IMG/VR virus record: IMGVR_UViG_3300032291_003156
Span: 1 to 43,115 of that record
Strand: one strand, 5' to 3'
From: a virus
Length of the DNA stretch: 43,115 bases
This document shows positions 12,704 through 25,620 of this stretch, one piece after another. The first letter of the stretch is position 1, and every line of letters begins with the position of its first letter. The notes under the pieces were generated by a model, which was given only the letters and a program-made list of their open reading frames with translations, was not told the origin of the DNA and did not search any database. A program made the position numbers and the translations under genes.

Positions 12704-13164
12704 AGAAAGTATACTATGAAAAAATTGGACGTCGGTATTATCCTGTGGCTGAGTATGATAATGATCTTTTGGATAGTTTCCCTCGAGGTAATCACTTGGT
12801 CATGTGCTATCCCGGGGGAACATCCCGTAGGTTTAACGTGGAACCTAACCATGCCGCGCTGATTGCCGCTGGCCGTGTGGCAGAAGATGCTATGAGTCAG
12901 GCCATTAGTAAAGCCAGTGAGTTGCGACCCAAGCAAACTCCTATTACAGAAGGTCAACGCCGAGCTTGGAAGAAATTAGCCAAAGAGTTTGGTGATGAGT
13001 TGGCAACATTAAACATTAATAGTTCCCGTGATATTGCCGAAGCTGGATTGAAGGCCATGCAGGAAGAAGCAGACAAACTCATGACCAATCCCGCTGTGCG
13101 ACTGGCCTACGAGCAGTTTCTCCTGGTGTGCGAATTAACTAAAAAACAAGTTGACAACGCCTGA
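12700..13164 (+). CDS. Conserved phage hypothetical protein
   Basis: A 154-residue protein with N-terminal KKVYYEKIGRRYYPVAEYD, a middle CYPGGTSRRFNVEP loop, and a mostly helical C-terminal part with many Lys/Glu (TEGQRRAWKKLAKEF). I chose ATG 12700 because it forms the ATGA overlap with the previous stop; an in-frame GTG at 12682 would add six residues. Function unknown. The promoter for the following structured leader lies in its last codons. Confidence 0.78.
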   Translation: MKKVYYEKIGRRYYPVAEYDNDLLDSFPRGNHLVMCYPGGTSRRFNVEPNHAALIAAGRVAEDAMSQAISKASELRPKQTPITEGQRRAWKKLAKEFGDELATLNINSSRDIAEAGLKAMQEEADKLMTNPAVRLAYEQFLLVCELTKKQVDNA

Positions 13165-13179
13165 CTTGTGCAGTATAAT
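13151..13179 (+). promoter_or_regulatory. Full-consensus sigma70 promoter
   Basis: TTGACA (13151-13156), 17-nt spacer, TATAAT (13174-13179). It is the only perfect-consensus 17-nt-spaced promoter I found in the window, and it lies inside the end of the previous gene. Predicted start is near 13186. Confidence 0.82.
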
Positions 13180-13185
13180 TACTGT

Positions 13186-13377
13186 GCATGACCAGGGAGA
13201 TTGGGTTGTTTAATGGACACAGCAGGAATAGATCTGTAACCGGTCCTGCTATGTGCCGTGGCATCAGAAACATAAATCCCGTAGGATGAGACACTGGCTA
13301 GACCTGGCAACAGGTCAAAACACTGGCTGGTACCCAGTGGAGTATGCCTTGTAGATAAAACAGTGTAAAGGATAGTA
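13186..13377 (+). ncRNA. Candidate structured RNA or regulatory leader
   Basis: About 190 nt between a strong promoter and the next gene, with several clean hairpins: AGCAGGA (13221-13227) with TCCTGCT (13244-13250), 7 bp; GACCTG (13301-13306) with CAGGTC (13311-13316) around a GCAA tetraloop (GNRA type); CACTGG (13321-13326) with CCAGTG (13334-13339). ACACTG at 13291 or 13320 can also pair with CAGTGT (13361-13366), which lies just before the AAAGGA ribosome site of the next gene, so competing folds could hide or expose it. A 33-codon frame starts at ATG 13188, at the predicted transcript end, but has no ribosome site. It may be a riboswitch-like leader or a stand-alone small RNA; I cannot match a known class. 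Confidence 0.5.
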
Positions 13378-13695
13378 ATGTCTGTTGAAATTGAAACCTC
13401 TGCGTTGAGTACGTTTGAATCCCTCGACTCTCTTAGAGCAACGCCCTTGGTCATGCACCGTATTCAAATTGAGTTGCGTGATATTGCCACGTGGTATGCT
13501 GTTATTCGCGAACTCAATCAAGTGCTTGGTACCAGTAACTGGAAGGGTCAAAATCATGTCCGGCGCCGATTAGAAAACTTAATTTGGGAAAATGATAAAA
13601 ATATTTGGGTTTGGTTTGACGTGCCAGATGTCAAGATTGCCACATGGTTGGCCGTTAAACTAGCCGTCCAAGTCCGCGTACTACCCAATAAATAA
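13378..13695 (+). CDS. Hypothetical protein behind the structured leader
   Basis: A 105-residue, mostly helical protein with a Trp-rich C-terminal half (LIWENDKNIWVWFDVPDVKIATWLAVKLAV). Start ATG 13378 with AAAGGATAG just upstream. It is the first gene of the transcript that includes the leader; only 4 nt separate it from the membrane protein that follows. No family recognised. Confidence 0.72.
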   Translation: MSVEIETSALSTFESLDSLRATPLVMHRIQIELRDIATWYAVIRELNQVLGTSNWKGQNHVRRRLENLIWENDKNIWVWFDVPDVKIATWLAVKLAVQVRVLPNK

Positions 13696-13699
13696 ATCT

Positions 13700-15151
13700 A
13701 TGTTCCTTAGTTATTTTACATTGTTAACCGCTCTTTCATTGAGCGTGGTTGCGGCCTGGTACAGTATACTGGGCCTTACTGCTATTTTTGCGTCAGCAGT
13801 TGTTCCTATTATTATCATGGGATCCATCCTGGAAGTGGCCAAGGTCACTGTCACAGTATGGTTGCACGAGTACTGGCACCGTTGCCGACTGATGATGAAG
13901 ATATACCTTGTGCCAGCAGTGTTCATGCTCATGGTGATCACAAGTATGGGCATCTTTGGGTTTTTATCAAAAGCACACAGTGACCAAAGTCTGGTGTCGG
14001 GCGATGTGCTGGCCAAGATCTCTGTGTACGACGAAAAAATCAAACTAGCAAAAGACAATATTGATGCCAACCGCAGAGCTCTTACACAAATGGATGAAGC
14101 TGTGGACCAGGTTATGAGTCGCAGCCAGGACGAAAAAGGTGCTGACAAAGCAGTTTCGCTCCGCAGAGCACAGGCCAAAGAACGCAACCGATTGTTTGCC
14201 GAAATTGCAGCCGAACAGAAAAAAATTACTAGCATCAATGAAGAACGAGCTCCTATTGCAGCCGAGGTTCGCAAAATTGAAGCAGAAGTAGGACCAATCA
14301 AATACATTGCGGCGTTTATCTATGGCGACAGCCCAGACACCAATCTCTTGGAACGTGCTGTGCGTTGGGTCATCATCATACTTGTGGTGGTGTTTGATCC
14401 ACTTGCCATCATGATGGTTCTGGCTGCTACAGAGAGCATGAAGTGGGAACGTGAACGACGACGCCAACTGGCCTATGAGCCCGACGATGGCCCACTCACA
14501 GACGAACAACTTGCACAACTACGTGCGACAGCAGAGCCTGAACTGCCTCAGGGCGAAGTTGCTGTCTCTAGCCAACTGTTTGATGATCCCGGGGAGCATC
14601 CTGCAGACACATTTGATCATGAAGTTGAACAACCTGCTGAACAACCTGCTGAACAACAGGCAATAGGACCAGTGGTATTTGATCAAAACTATTTGAATAC
14701 ACTGCAAGAAGATACATCTGGACATGATACTCCCAGCATTAAGACTGCAATCAAACAATGGAAGAGTGAAAATCCCAACAGCACAATAAAAGAGGAACGT
14801 GCCAAATTGGCCGATGGCAAAATTTCCCAACTGCCTTGGATGCAGTTGATAGCAGATAACGACTTGGGCAGAGAGCCCACATCAGGATTTGGTATCTCTT
14901 TCCCAACAAATCCAGCCCCGGCCAAAGGCGACACATTTATGCGTGTGGATCAAATGCCCAATGTGTTGTACAAGTTCAACGGACATCACTGGATTATTGT
15001 GGACAAGAATTTAACTGACAACTATGCCTACGATGATGCATACATTGAGCATCTAATTGCCAAACTCACAAGTGGTGAATACGACCCAGACATGTTGAGT
15101 GATGCTGAAGCAGATGCCATTGCTCGTCGTGTGAGACCCGTCAACACATGA
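13700..15151 (+). CDS. Membrane protein with coiled coil and acidic linker
   Basis: A 483-residue protein with three N-terminal hydrophobic segments (roughly residues 4-24, 28-48 and 70-92), a long charged coiled-coil region (about 105-200), a fourth span near 217-243 (VIIILVVVFDPLAIMMVLAA), then an acidic, Pro/Glu/Gln-rich linker containing a short repeat (EQPAEQPAEQQ) and a compact C-terminal domain with LYKFNGHHWIIVDK. Similar four-span coiled-coil proteins occur in marine T4-like phages. It may act at the host inner membrane, for example in DNA entry, lysis timing or superinfection; that is inference. Coupled by ATGA to the epimerase gene. Confidence 0.82.
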   Translation: MFLSYFTLLTALSLSVVAAWYSILGLTAIFASAVVPIIIMGSILEVAKVTVTVWLHEYWHRCRLMMKIYLVPAVFMLMVITSMGIFGFLSKAHSDQSLVSGDVLAKISVYDEKIKLAKDNIDANRRALTQMDEAVDQVMSRSQDEKGADKAVSLRRAQAKERNRLFAEIAAEQKKITSINEERAPIAAEVRKIEAEVGPIKYIAAFIYGDSPDTNLLERAVRWVIIILVVVFDPLAIMMVLAATESMKWERERRRQLAYEPDDGPLTDEQLAQLRATAEPELPQGEVAVSSQLFDDPGEHPADTFDHEVEQPAEQPAEQQAIGPVVFDQNYLNTLQEDTSGHDTPSIKTAIKQWKSENPNSTIKEERAKLADGKISQLPWMQLIADNDLGREPTSGFGISFPTNPAPAKGDTFMRVDQMPNVLYKFNGHHWIIVDKNLTDNYAYDDAYIEHLIAKLTSGEYDPDMLSDAEADAIARRVRPVNT

Positions 15152-16005
15152 TCCTAGTAACCGGCGATCGCGGCTTTATTGGCAGCGAACTCAAACAACA
15201 TCTCATTGATCAAGGTCACGATGTACACGGCCTTGACTGGGACACACGTGGCCAAACTTACACAGTTCGCACACCAGTGGAATGGATATTTCACATGGGC
15301 GCCATCAGCGAAACCAATGCTGACAACTGGGATGAAATTGTTCGAAAGAACATAAAAGATACGCAAAACTGGATTAAAACTGCGCAGAAGTGGGGATGTG
15401 GCATCACCTATGCATCAAGTGCCAGTGTGTATGGTTCTTGGTCCAACAGTCCTGAATGGGGACCAGTGCAACCACAGCACATGTATGGTGTCAGCAAGTT
15501 GGCCATTGACAACTGGTGTGCTGAACAACGCTTCTCTGTGCCTGTACAAGGCATGCGATTCTTCAACGTGTATGGACGCAATGAAGGGCACAAAGCACAG
15601 CCCAGTCCCATCCGCACGTACATGAAGCGAGCCATTGCTGGTGACCCACTTGTGGTGTGGAATCACCGTGGACGCTTGGGCACAAGAGATTTTGTCAGTG
15701 TGGATGATTGTATACAAGCAATGACCCAGTTAAAAAACACAGGTATCAGTGGAGTATACAACGTTGGCACCGGTCAACAACTCACATTCCAAGACATTGC
15801 ACACAGCATACAACGTCGATGCGGCAACGTGTCAGTATTACTAGAACCCATGCCCGAACACATGGTTGAAAAATATCAGTGGGAAAGCCGAGCAGATTTA
15901 AATAAACTGCAATCCGCAATACCTTGGAATCCGCAAACGGTGGATCAGTGGCTAGACAAAAACTTTGATATTCTTTACAATAAAATCATAAATGAAAACA
16001 CCTGA
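15148..16005 (+). CDS. NAD(P)-dependent sugar epimerase, ADP-heptose 6-epimerase-like
   Basis: A 285-residue extended short-chain dehydrogenase. Seen: the Rossmann motif TGDRGFIGS, HMGAISETN (compare HEGACSSTT in E. coli HldD), the YASSASVYG region, the catalytic YGVSK, FFNVYGRNEGHK (matching FNVYGPREGHK), and RDFVSVDDC. Around residue 240 the run MPEHMVEKYQWESRADLNKL closely follows HldD (KLKGRYQAFTQADLTNL). The family makes ADP-L-glycero-manno-heptose for the LPS core, so the phage may alter host LPS. Overlaps the gene before by 4 nt and clpX by 14 nt. Confidence 0.85.
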   Translation: MILVTGDRGFIGSELKQHLIDQGHDVHGLDWDTRGQTYTVRTPVEWIFHMGAISETNADNWDEIVRKNIKDTQNWIKTAQKWGCGITYASSASVYGSWSNSPEWGPVQPQHMYGVSKLAIDNWCAEQRFSVPVQGMRFFNVYGRNEGHKAQPSPIRTYMKRAIAGDPLVVWNHRGRLGTRDFVSVDDCIQAMTQLKNTGISGVYNVGTGQQLTFQDIAHSIQRRCGNVSVLLEPMPEHMVEKYQWESRADLNKLQSAIPWNPQTVDQWLDKNFDILYNKIINENT

Positions 16006-17203
16006 AACATTAGACAATTGTAGTTTTTGTGGCAAGCACAAAGATAGTGTGGCCAAACTCATTGTGGGAGTAGATGTATCAATCTGCAATGAGTGCGTGG
16101 ATCTGTGTCAAGACTTGCTCAAGGATGAATTGTCCAACAAAGCACAGACCGCGCCAGATGACACACCAGATCCACGTGCCATCAAAGAGCACTTGGATCA
16201 GTATGTTGTTGGACAAAATCTTGCCAAGATGGTGTTGAGCGTGGCCATTGCCAATCACTACAAACGCATTGCCAATGTAGATCCAAATGTGGAGATTGAA
16301 AAGGCCAATATCCTTATGTTAGGACCAACTGGATCAGGCAAAACCCTGCTGGCACGTACAGTGGCACGTTACTTGGATGTGCCATTTGTGATTGCAGATG
16401 CCACAAGTTTGACTGAAGCAGGATATGTAGGCGATGATGTAGAAAGTTTGATCACCAGATTGTACACAGCCGCAGGTGGTGATGTAGAGCGAACACAACG
16501 TGGTATTGTGTTCATTGATGAAATTGACAAGATCAGTCGTCGCAGCGAGAGTGCCAGTATCACCCGAGATGTGTCAGGTGAAGGTGTGCAACAGGCCTTG
16601 CTCAAACTGGTAGAAGGTACCCGGTGTAGAATTACTCCACAAGGTGGGCGTAAACACCCAGCAGGCGAAACAGTAGAAATTAACACAGCCAATATATTGT
16701 TCATTGCCGGCGGCGCATTTGTGGGCCTGGACAACATTGTAAAAAGTCGAGTCAAGGGCACCAGCATTGGATTCTCAGCACAGGTGGTAGGAGACAGCAC
16801 CAGTGCAACACTGGATAAAACCACACCTGAAGATCTAATACGCTTTGGTATGATTCCAGAGTTTGTGGGACGTTTCCCCAGTTGGGTAGCTTTGGCAGAG
16901 CTCAGCAAAGCAGACTTGGTACGCATATTGCAGGATGTCAAACACAGTTATGTCAGTCAGTATCAATGGTTGTTCCAGCGTGATCAAATTGAGTTGAAAT
17001 TCAGTACTGACAGCCTGGACTTGATTGCAGAACGTACCATGGCCAACAAAACTGGCGCACGTGGTTTGCATTCAGAACTTGAACGTGTGTTGTTGCCGCA
17101 CATGTACAATCTAGCACGTTATCGCAAGCACGGAATCCGCATGGTCAGTATTGATACCCAGCAGGTAAATATTACCAAGGAGCTCAAAGAGATAAATGAA
17201 TAA
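15992..17203 (+). CDS. clpX: ClpX, AAA+ unfoldase of the Clp protease
   Basis: A 403-residue ClpX close to bacterial length. The N-terminal zinc-binding domain is intact (Cys 10, 13, 32, 35). The AAA+ core has Walker A GPTGSGKT (111-118), the pore loop GYVG, Walker B VFIDEIDK, a RDVSGEGVQQALLKLVEGT segment, sensor-type residues in MIPEFVGRFP, and the arginine-containing KTGARGL box. The ClpP-docking loop keeps IGF (259-261), so it should bind a ClpP, either host-made or phage-made (genes at 32828 and 34644). It overlaps both the epimerase gene and the bS21 gene, so all three are co-translated. Confidence 0.95.
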   Translation: MKTPETLDNCSFCGKHKDSVAKLIVGVDVSICNECVDLCQDLLKDELSNKAQTAPDDTPDPRAIKEHLDQYVVGQNLAKMVLSVAIANHYKRIANVDPNVEIEKANILMLGPTGSGKTLLARTVARYLDVPFVIADATSLTEAGYVGDDVESLITRLYTAAGGDVERTQRGIVFIDEIDKISRRSESASITRDVSGEGVQQALLKLVEGTRCRITPQGGRKHPAGETVEINTANILFIAGGAFVGLDNIVKSRVKGTSIGFSAQVVGDSTSATLDKTTPEDLIRFGMIPEFVGRFPSWVALAELSKADLVRILQDVKHSYVSQYQWLFQRDQIELKFSTDSLDLIAERTMANKTGARGLHSELERVLLPHMYNLARYRKHGIRMVSIDTQQVNITKELKEINE

Positions 17204-17420
17204 GTCACGTGCAAGATCAGTGCTGGTACAAGATGGTAACATAGAAAAAGCCCTGCGCAAGTTCAAGAAAAAAGTACAAAATTCTGGCATACTAAATGAT
17301 CTTAGAGAATGTGAATTCTATATCAAGCCCACAACTGCTAGAAAAATCAAACGCAGTGCAGCCAAAAATCGTTGGCGCAAACAAGTAGAAGCCCAGCAAC
17401 TGCCTCCACGAACATATTAA
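17196..17420 (+). CDS. rpsU: 30S ribosomal protein bS21
   Basis: A 74-residue bS21 homologue. The family signature is clear: GNIEKALRKFKKKVQNSG, the REFYxKPTTxRK region (here CEFYIKPTTARK), then a basic tail (RSAAKNRWRKQ). In bacteria bS21 sits near the 3' end of 16S rRNA and affects initiation. Phage-encoded bS21 is known from pelagiphage and large freshwater phages and is thought to bias translation toward phage mRNA. The ATG overlaps the clpX stop by 8 nt, so it is the last gene of that operon. Confidence 0.93.
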   Translation: MNKSRARSVLVQDGNIEKALRKFKKKVQNSGILNDLRECEFYIKPTTARKIKRSAAKNRWRKQVEAQQLPPRTY

Positions 17421-17434
17421 TTTTTTCAAATATT

Positions 17435-17463
17435 TTGACACACAATGAAATTTGTGTTATAAA
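17435..17463 (+). promoter_or_regulatory. Promoter region of hsp20: sigma70-like with overlapping late motif
   Basis: TTGACA (17435-17440), 17-nt spacer, TATAAA (17458-17463). The -10 is part of TATAAATA (17458-17465), the exact T4 late promoter motif, so hsp20 could be read by host sigma70 and by the phage late sigma. Confidence 0.68.
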
Positions 17464-17470
17464 TATACAT

Positions 17471-17492
17471 GTAGTGCCCATGGTGGGGCTAC
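17471..17492 (+). other. 5'-leader hairpin of hsp20
   Basis: GTAG (17471-17474) pairs with CTAC (17489-17492), with an inner CCC/GGG pairing and a 2-nt bulge. It falls near the predicted 5' end of the hsp20 mRNA; a 20-nt leader segment with the ribosome site follows at 17508-17527. Confidence 0.45.
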
Positions 17493-17531
17493 ATTTCAAA
17501 AAGTCATCTTGCTTAATAAAGGAGAAAACAA

Positions 17532-17984
17532 ATGACAAAAACTCTAACCCTTCGCGGCTTCGACATTCCTGCAATTCACAAATTTGGTATTGGTTTCGAT
17601 AACATGTTTGATGAACTCATGCGTGTGAGTGCTCAACAAAGCTCAACAAACTATCCACCTTATAATATTGTACAAATCAACGAAGATGAGTACATGATTA
17701 GTCTTGCTGTAGCCGGTTTTGGATTTGACAGTCTTTCAGTTACCAAGGACAAAAACTTCTTGATCATTGAAGGCAAAGAATATCAGACTGACAGCGAAAA
17801 GATTGTGCCAAACTATCTGCACAAAGGTATCAGCAACAGAGATTTCCGTAGAGAATTTCAGTTGGCGGATCATGTGGAAATTACCAATGCGCACCTTGAA
17901 CTGGGTATCTTGAATGTTCACTTGAAACGTGAAATTCCAGAACAACACAAACCAAAGACCATTGCAATCTCCTACAAAGAGTGA
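17532..17984 (+). CDS. Small heat shock protein (Hsp20/IbpA-like)
   Basis: A 150-residue alpha-crystallin-type chaperone. N-terminal FDNMFDEL motif, PPYNIVQINEDEYMISLAVAGF entering the crystallin domain, EGKEYQ, the HKGISNRDFRREFQLADHVE segment and the terminal GILNVHLKREIPE follow IbpA closely; the C-terminal IxI-type tail is AISYKE-like. It would hold unfolding proteins during infection and pass them to host or phage chaperones. Strong ribosome site (AAAGGAGAAA). Hsp20 is a common core gene of T4-like cyanophages. It sits between clpX/rpsU and clpS. Confidence 0.93.
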   Translation: MTKTLTLRGFDIPAIHKFGIGFDNMFDELMRVSAQQSSTNYPPYNIVQINEDEYMISLAVAGFGFDSLSVTKDKNFLIIEGKEYQTDSEKIVPNYLHKGISNRDFRREFQLADHVEITNAHLELGILNVHLKREIPEQHKPKTIAISYKE

Positions 17985-17990: not shown

Positions 17991-17999
17991 GTAAATACA

Positions 18000-18022
18000 G
18001 TGACGGCATTATGCCGTCACTG
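18000..18022 (+). other. 10-bp hairpin in the clpS leader
   Basis: AGTGACGGCA, TTA loop, TGCCGTCACT: a perfect 10-bp stem. It has no T-run, so it is a weak terminator for hsp20 at best; it would sit at the very 5' end of the clpS mRNA and may protect it from decay. Confidence 0.6.
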
Positions 18023-24429: not shown

Positions 24430-25620
24430 TTATTTCAACAATTGAATTTGAGAAATGTGCAAACCAGTTTGATGCTGATTCATTAGAATCATGGCATGAT
24501 CCAAGTTGGCTCGGTATTCGTTCATGACCCGATCAAACAGTTTGTTGAAAAAATGTTGCTTGTTGCGTTGTGCAATTTCGTGCAATTTCGTGTACAATGC
24601 CTGCTTGTCATCATGGCTCAATGCAGCAATTCTTTTCATTTCTTCGATGATATGATCTAATCTTGTTCGGCTATCCAAGATTAGATCATACGACTCATCG
24701 ATCAAGCTGCCAAATGTTTCAAATCCATAACTTTGCAAATATTGCAAACTGCCCGGTGTTGCTGCCAGTATAAATGGTTTGCCACAGGCTATGGGTCTCA
24801 GTATTTTTTCAGTAAGATGCCAACGATTCTCGTCGAACAGTGTTTCCAATACCACATCAATGGCATGATCAACATAGTCCTGAGCCACATAATCAGCACT
24901 CAAATCACTTTTTGCTGTGTTTGATAGCAACAGTTTGTGTAAGTCAAAGTTTGAAATTTGTAAATCATTGTTTACAAAACTGTGATCGGTATAATGTACA
25001 TGGTTATCAAATTCGGCAAAATTAATGCTAGAAGCCAAATCAAGTTGATGGGCAATAATTTGTTGTGCAAAATACAACCGATATTCTCTTGTTCCACTCC
25101 AGGCTCTATTGTAAATTAAAAAATCTTTTTTAAAGTTGCTGTATTTCAACATTGGGTCATGTTGTGCGTATCTAAACCAATCTAATGCAATCACAGCATG
25201 GCTCCAGTAGTAAACTGGAATAAAAACATCCGACGCCAGCTTGGCCACTTGGTCACTTGATTGCTCTGAATGCAGTAAAAGGCACTTGTCAAATTGATTC
25301 CTACAAGGCAACATTCCCCTGATACCAAGGCTGGCATAATAGTCAGTTATTGCCTTGTGCGATGAGTAATTGTTGTCATGCAGTATGACATGACCTTTTT
25401 GTTGAATAGCATAATAAATGTCTTGTGCCGACCAAAGATCAGGATTAATGGGTTCTTGATCGTGACACAACATCAACGGATGCACATTGGTTGGTTTATC
25501 AGTCAATTGAGCGAGATCTTCCAGTTTTCTCGAACCATGTGGCAACCAACGATAAATTACTAGATCGTGGTTGACACTGTCGGCCAGATAGTGATATAAT
25601 TTGTCTAAAGGAACGTTCAT
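24430..25620 (-). CDS. Glycosyltransferase-like protein (GT-B type C-terminal half)
   Basis: A 396-residue protein. The C-terminal half contains DENRWHLTEKILRPIACGKPFILAATPGSLQYL followed by GFETF and DESYD, a nucleotide-sugar-binding pattern resembling GT10 fucosyltransferase-like and other phage glycosyltransferase-like proteins. The N-terminal half has LVIYRWLPHGSRK and CHDQEP, seen in similar phage proteins. I use ATG 25620, whose start codon abuts the divergent ATG 25621. Specific sugar and acceptor unknown; it would fit the sugar-handling genes on the other side of the shared start region. Confidence 0.75.
   Translation of the reverse strand: MNVPLDKLYHYLADSVNHDLVIYRWLPHGSRKLEDLAQLTDKPTNVHPLMLCHDQEPINPDLWSAQDIYYAIQQKGHVILHDNNYSSHKAITDYYASLGIRGMLPCRNQFDKCLLLHSEQSSDQVAKLASDVFIPVYYWSHAVIALDWFRYAQHDPMLKYSNFKKDFLIYNRAWSGTREYRLYFAQQIIAHQLDLASSINFAEFDNHVHYTDHSFVNNDLQISNFDLHKLLLSNTAKSDLSADYVAQDYVDHAIDVVLETLFDENRWHLTEKILRPIACGKPFILAATPGSLQYLQSYGFETFGSLIDESYDLILDSRTRLDHIIEEMKRIAALSHDDKQALYTKLHEIAQRNKQHFFNKLFDRVMNEYRANLDHAMILMNQHQTGLHISQIQLLK
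25571..25600 (+). promoter_or_regulatory. Sigma70-type promoter of the sugar-dehydrogenase operon
   Basis: TTGACA (25571-25576), 18-nt spacer, TATAAT (25595-25600). It lies wholly inside the first codons of the divergent gene and drives the gene at 25621 with a leader of about 14 nt carrying AAAGGA. Confidence 0.8.

Follow-up and report, generated by a model that had tools for sequence, protein, structure and literature searches.

What is transcribed from a perfect promoter that is followed by no recognizable gene? In a 43-kb virus record from IMG/VR, the whole of which is the window analyzed here, an earlier note on the sequence had described a full-consensus TTGACA-17-TATAAT promoter, about 190 nt without a convincing gene and, behind the promoter, a possible undescribed structured RNA. 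We found support for such an RNA, which covaries across homologues, matches no Rfam family, and is both larger and better supported than had been claimed. On the comparative evidence presented below, the element is a new, previously uncatalogued RNA family of large freshwater bacteriophages, for which we infer a mechanism of action.

The promoter at 13151–13179 is indeed perfect, and the window holds two perfect TTGACA/TATAAT sites against 0.07 expected from shuffled sequences. The second site (25571–25600, with an 18-nt spacer) lies just 5′ of a UDP-glucose dehydrogenase gene (25621). Judging from spacing, transcription is predicted to start at ~13186, the G of GCAUG, 7 nt past the −10 box. 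Across homologues, the promoter is mostly retained, with the −35 box missing in some (e.g., L105 and L142). A palindrome (CAGTATAATTACTG, 13171–13184) that spans the −10 box occurs in only part of the close relatives and is a possible operator. The sequence directly 5′ of the promoter differs in L004, L006, L016, L023, and L029–L031, indicating that the promoter–RNA–gene unit stays together while its upstream neighbor changes. The stretch past the promoter lacks a convincing gene, as proposed: the 33-codon frame starting at 13188 is not conserved, ranging from 6 to 62 codons among 89 homologues, with one-base indels breaking the frame, and we rejected it as a leader peptide or other small open reading frame. 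A frame read from UAAUGG was also rejected, its AUG being lost in several homologues as judged by eye.

Using the 105-aa protein encoded directly downstream as a query, we retrieved 31 loci from IMG/VR; adding an RNA-derived DNA pattern and three profile searches brought the set to 125 distinct contigs. For R1, a covariance model, 58 distinct sequences served as input, all of them among those it later matched. R1 matched 125 of 125 IMG/VR phage contigs encoding the 105-aa protein, always directly upstream of that gene, the match in L096 being partial because the contig end cuts the element. Each of 22 records, with sizes up to 364 kb, contained a single significant copy; one record (G007) gave an additional sub-threshold hit (E = 0.335, E-values being approximate owing to a short calibration). 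The RNA comprises about 240 bases (~13186 to 13420/13425), beginning at the promoter and extending beyond the start codon of the 105-aa gene (Table 1).

The covariance-model search suggested in the earlier note was run and returned no family: no Rfam 15 model reached its gathering threshold in the window, and 13100–13450 gave no match even up to E 10. Six divergent homologues and L150 likewise had no Rfam match, and L121 yielded chance hits only, all on the opposite strand. A search of 50,697 phage records with protein and DNA produced nothing beyond chance-level hits, plasmids searched with DNA gave no match, and the lone hit from a bacterial-genome scan (L136) was rejected as a chance match in another frame. 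No description of the RNA turned up in the largely open-access literature searched. As far as these collections show, the family is limited to one lineage of large or huge metagenome phages.

Table 1 Coordinates of the promoter, RNA elements, and operon genes in the window.
Feature	Position	Strand	Basis
Sigma-70 promoter TTGACA-17-TATAAT	13151–13179	+	Exact match to consensus
Whole conserved RNA element (covariance model R1)	13186–13425	+	R1 match in all 125 gene-carrying contigs
5′ segment GCAUGAYCARRGAG, predicted single-stranded, purine-rich, SD-like	13186–13202	+	GCAU invariant in 89 sequences
P1, 5′ strand	13203–13212	+	13210–13269 significant in tree-aware one-set test; strand swap 0/5000
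P2 hairpin (contains the stem noted earlier at 13221–13250)	13215–13257	+	Covariation; strand swap 0/5000
P3 kissing helix, 5′ strand GGCA	13260–13263	+	Compensatory GC-to-AU changes
P1, 3′ strand (bulged U13277, internal loop 13273–13275)	13267–13280	+	Covariation, later-found set, tree-aware test
P6, 5′ strand ACACUG	13291–13296	+	Versions CACUG/CAGUG, AGA/UCU, AGG/CCU
P6b, 5′ strand CUA	13298–13300	+	CUA/UAG, CCUC/GAGG, CCCU/AGGG, UCUCUG/CAGAGA, CCUU/AAGG, CUUC/GAAG
P4 hairpin, GCAA loop in the window	13301–13316	+	13303–13314 best pair of 26,106; strand swap 0/5000
P5 hairpin	13321–13339	+	Covariation, later-found set, strand swap
P3, 3′ strand UGCC	13345–13348	+	Same compensatory changes; strand swap 11/5000
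P6b, 3′ strand UAG	13352–13354	+	Covariation, tree-aware test
P6, 3′ strand CAGUGU, directly 5′ of SD in the window	13361–13366	+	P6+P6b strand swap 0/5000
Ribosome-binding site AAAGGA, 5 nt 5′ of AUG 13378	13367–13372	+	Sequence; AAGG 5′ of AUG in 89/89 homologues
105-aa protein	13378–13695	+	Window protein without family match at thresholds used
P7 hairpin, codons 6–13 of 105-aa gene	13394–13416	+	13396–13414 significant in tree-aware test
483-aa protein, next operon gene	13700–15151	+	
NAD-dependent epimerase	15148–16005	+	In only some homologues
ClpX-like AAA+ with zinc finger	15992–17203	+	
Phage ribosomal protein bS21, final operon gene in the window	17196–17420	+	PF01165, 1.4e-18

The RNA folds into two stem domains, one consisting of P1 with P2 nested within it and the other of P6 enclosing P6b, P4, and P5. 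The two domains kiss via P3, which joins their loops and creates an A-B-A-C-B-C topology, and the junctions hold many invariant unpaired bases. The three stems originally proposed, at 13221–13250, 13301–13316 (with its GCAA loop), and 13321–13339, all exist and covary in homologues, where the P4 loop is another GNRA or UUCG; helices P1, P3, and P6b and the in-gene hairpin P7 were absent from that description. ACACTG (13291–13296) and CAGTGT (13361–13366) had been regarded as an alternative pairing. The pairing is real, but it is not merely alternative: it constitutes P6 of the conserved fold and shows compensatory changes. The ACACTGGCT repeat reported at 13291 and 13320 is present in the window and is incidental, because homologues do not retain it. 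For the same reason, a type III toxin–antitoxin system, for which conserved tandem repeats would be expected, was rejected, and the 105-aa protein matched no toxin family at the thresholds used.

Individual elements differ in how they vary. The apical CC(N)GG motif of P2 (13239–13246) was found in 81 of 89 sequences and is missing from the clade of L029, L031, and L090; this apical-loop motif recalls the 16S site of S6:S18. Support for P3 consists of few changes (five sequences plus L141), namely GC to AU at 13260–13348 in L029, L030, L031, L090, and L098, and at 13261–13347 in L141. The 5′ segment (13186–13202) has no supported pairing partner: pairing of its GCAU with AUGC at 13344–13347 shows no covariation and is broken in L152, and its GAG shows no covariation with a coding-sequence CUC either, a pairing that served among the control segments of the strand-swap test. 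A tRNA-like reading of the D-arm-like GGGUAGYYYAAUGG was rejected, as this segment makes up the 5′ side of P1, pairing with 13267–13280, and ARAGORN found nothing. A hairpin AUCC-CGUA-GGAU (13276–13287) was likewise discarded, its CCC pairing in P1 instead.

The folding energy of the single sequence was no better than that of shuffled sequences (z = −0.40). Comparison was thus needed to settle the structure, and energy was not used as evidence. Among 58 distinct sequences, the covariation score was 0.321, as against at most 0.105 with slid partners, and standard pairs occupied 85.9% of pair cells versus 34–44% with slid partners. Under a tree-aware null, our own simplified version of R-scape, 3 pairs of 26,106 passed E < 0.05, namely 13303–13314 in P4, 13210–13269 in P1, and 13396–13414 in P7. 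Other pairs of the structure ranked high in this test, and so did some neighboring off-register P6 pairs; the test alone would therefore not settle P6. The alignment used for testing had also served in part to draw the structure, which prompted two further checks, one on later-found sequences and one by strand swapping. In a structure-blind alignment of 31 distinct later-found sequences, which were found through the protein and belong to the same lineage as the rest, P1a, P3, P4, P5, P6, and P7 were retained, while the middle pairs of P2 and one P6b pair aligned poorly. When strands were swapped between homologues, a test that leans little on alignment, every helix was weakened: 0 of 5000 permutations reached the native mean for P1, P2, P4, P5, P6/P6b, and P7, and 11 of 5000 did so for P3; four control segment pairs showed no effect.

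At the translation start, P6 and P7 flank an unpaired stretch that holds the ribosome-binding site and the start codon. The 3′ strand of P6 stops at 13366 and AAAGGA starts at 13367; homologues have either no gap here or one of a few bases. Structure over the translation start region, provided here by P6 and P7, is what an autogenous leader of the ribosomal-protein type would have. Predicted openness was middling (0.49 for the SD and 0.47 for the start codon), and no simple on/off occlusion is visible, since the SD itself is unpaired in the conserved fold. Within the gene, P7 is formed by strands 13394–13400 and 13407–13416. Its positions 13394–13397 and 13413–13416 are paired in 58 of 58 sequences (AAAC/GUUU, AGGG/CCCU, AGGC/GCCU, GGAC/GUCC, AGAC/GUCU, and similar), and later-found sequences carry AUGC/GCAU (L167 and L168) or GCGG/CCGC (L148). 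Amino acids 7 and 13 vary along with P7 (T/F, G/P, A/P, and T/S), indicating that pairing rather than protein sequence is conserved. P7, covarying across changed amino acids, clearly exemplifies how an RNA fold can shape the N-terminus of a protein, here a region predicted to be disordered.

Modeling of the 105-aa protein yielded disorder at residues ~1–15 and a confident alpha/beta ferredoxin-like region at 25–104, the best structural matches of which are common alpha/beta arrangements with Z at most 7.3 (below Z 8). Given this common fold and the lack of a family match, RNA binding by the modeled protein is neither supported nor excluded. Some homologues showed weak similarity to PHROG 5720 (best E 1e-4). 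An early low-confidence model had suggested a bL12-like topology; the matches of the better model fall below Z 8, and the PF00542 (bL12) profile found nothing in seven phage records.

The window genes from 13378 to 17420 abut or overlap. Most loci share the gene order ligase ... RNA – 105 aa – 483 aa – (epimerase) – ClpX-like, with bS21 next in many. L114 and L116 keep the RNA and the 105-aa gene, with neither the 483-aa nor the ClpX-like gene found within 3 kb. Of the 22 records checked, 16 encode bS21 on the strand of the RNA and ~3 kb downstream, and no bS21 was found in the remaining six (G012, G013, and G015–G018), all of which may be fragments. The RNA is kept in these six, making bS21 unlikely as its sole partner. 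In the phages of PMC9723584, bS21 lies near structural genes, a setting unlike the one here. Beyond bS21, the leader (17430–17531) of an Hsp20 gene (17532–17984) has a TTGACA/TATAAA-like promoter and a GTAGTGCCC..GGGGCTAC hairpin, and past this gene a long perfect inverted repeat, CAGTGACGGCAT-A-ATGCCGTCACTG (17998–18022), is terminator-like on the − strand.

From these comparisons, we consider it probable, at roughly 0.7, that the RNA is a structured 5′ operon leader that controls translation of the 105-aa gene in cis. The leader would act on translation of this gene and perhaps, by coupling, on the overlapping genes after it. A bound partner would stabilize the P3/P6/P7 fold, and the stabilized fold would set a helix on either side of the ribosome-binding site and start codon, holding or excluding the 30S subunit in a mode that may resemble pseudoknotted ribosomal-protein leaders. 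The most economical partner would be the 105-aa protein, with a metabolite or a ribosomal protein as alternatives; autogenous control by the 105-aa protein itself is a tentative proposal, to which we give clearly less than even odds. Since the homologues all belong to a single phage lineage, the constant neighbors could reflect shared inheritance and not functional linkage.

The earlier note had left the choice between a riboswitch-like leader and a phage small RNA. The RNA is always found directly next to the same gene, extends into its coding sequence, and is separated from the 105-aa gene by no predicted intrinsic terminator, which together favor a leader over a free RNA. Very strong conservation, a promoter of its own, and constant pairing with one protein gene would suit a free noncoding RNA, such as one scaffolding the 105-aa protein, whose overlap with the gene would be incidental and which would be released from the mRNA by processing. 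Yet P6 fits the position of the ribosome-binding site, P7 lies in the coding region, and all 89 homologues keep the SD, so that we hold a free RNA to be very improbable. Were the partner a metabolite, the kissing domains would build the pocket for the small molecule, with the P6 region serving as expression platform. As a riboswitch would be, the RNA is conserved and structured and forms the 5′ leader of a gene, and its kissing architecture, its helix beside the SD, its position at the operon head, and its many invariant unpaired junction bases are all in keeping with one. Riboswitches usually spread to several genes, whereas in 125 contigs this RNA precedes only one gene, not recognizable as metabolic or as a transporter; no Rfam riboswitch matched, and a hairpin such as P7 within the coding region would be unusual. 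A metabolite riboswitch is thus unlikely.

Ribosomal components enter into two further readings. The fold could offer the start site to (phage-modified) ribosomes and thereby raise translation during takeover, as suggested by the single-stranded start region between P6 and P7 and the SD-like 5′ tract GCAUGNNCARRGAG. On the 30S subunit, bS21 is a platform protein located at the anti-SD. Phage bS21, encoded downstream in most of the records checked, has been proposed to redirect initiation or favor phage mRNAs (PMC9723584, PMC7162821). However, the RNA persists in the six possibly fragmentary records without a bS21 hit, occurs on only one mRNA per phage and hence is no general tag, and in one clade lacks the apical CC(N)GG that resembles the S6:S18 site. 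Such a ribosome-recruiting element is accordingly doubtful. It would be a long shot that the leader is a partial mimic of the 30S platform to which ribosomal proteins (phage bS21 or host S6:S18) bind, the takeover operon sensing how far host ribosomes are re-equipped with phage bS21. If the trigger were a ribosomal component, the element would bear directly on what phage bS21 does.

The RNA offers a concrete, testable handle on translation control in huge phages. This new RNA family has unusually strong comparative support and stands at the head of an operon that ends in a phage ribosomal protein in most records checked. Structured RNAs in potential 5′ leaders of T4-like phages are already represented by manA and wcaG of cyanophages (PMC2864571, RF01745/RF01761). 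The phage RNA matches neither model, and manA and wcaG mostly precede metabolic genes, whereas the phage RNA precedes one 105-aa gene. The rpsF_leader (S6:S18; PMC4647458) is similar in its gene set with a platform ribosomal protein and in a conserved loop cytosine pair as a recognition feature. In contrast, the phage RNA has no Rfam match, its operon encodes bS21 and not S6/S18, and one clade lacks the CC motif. The E. coli rpsO (S15) leader and its mycobacterial counterpart share with the phage RNA a pseudoknot-type layout at the translation start, and translation in the rpsO pseudoknot leader is controlled by the gene's own product (PMC8470358). The phage RNA differs in its length of ~240 nt, its two kissing domains with a separate in-gene hairpin, and the lack of any Rfam relation found. 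By analogy of layout, and not of membership, rpsO is the nearest working model for this element.
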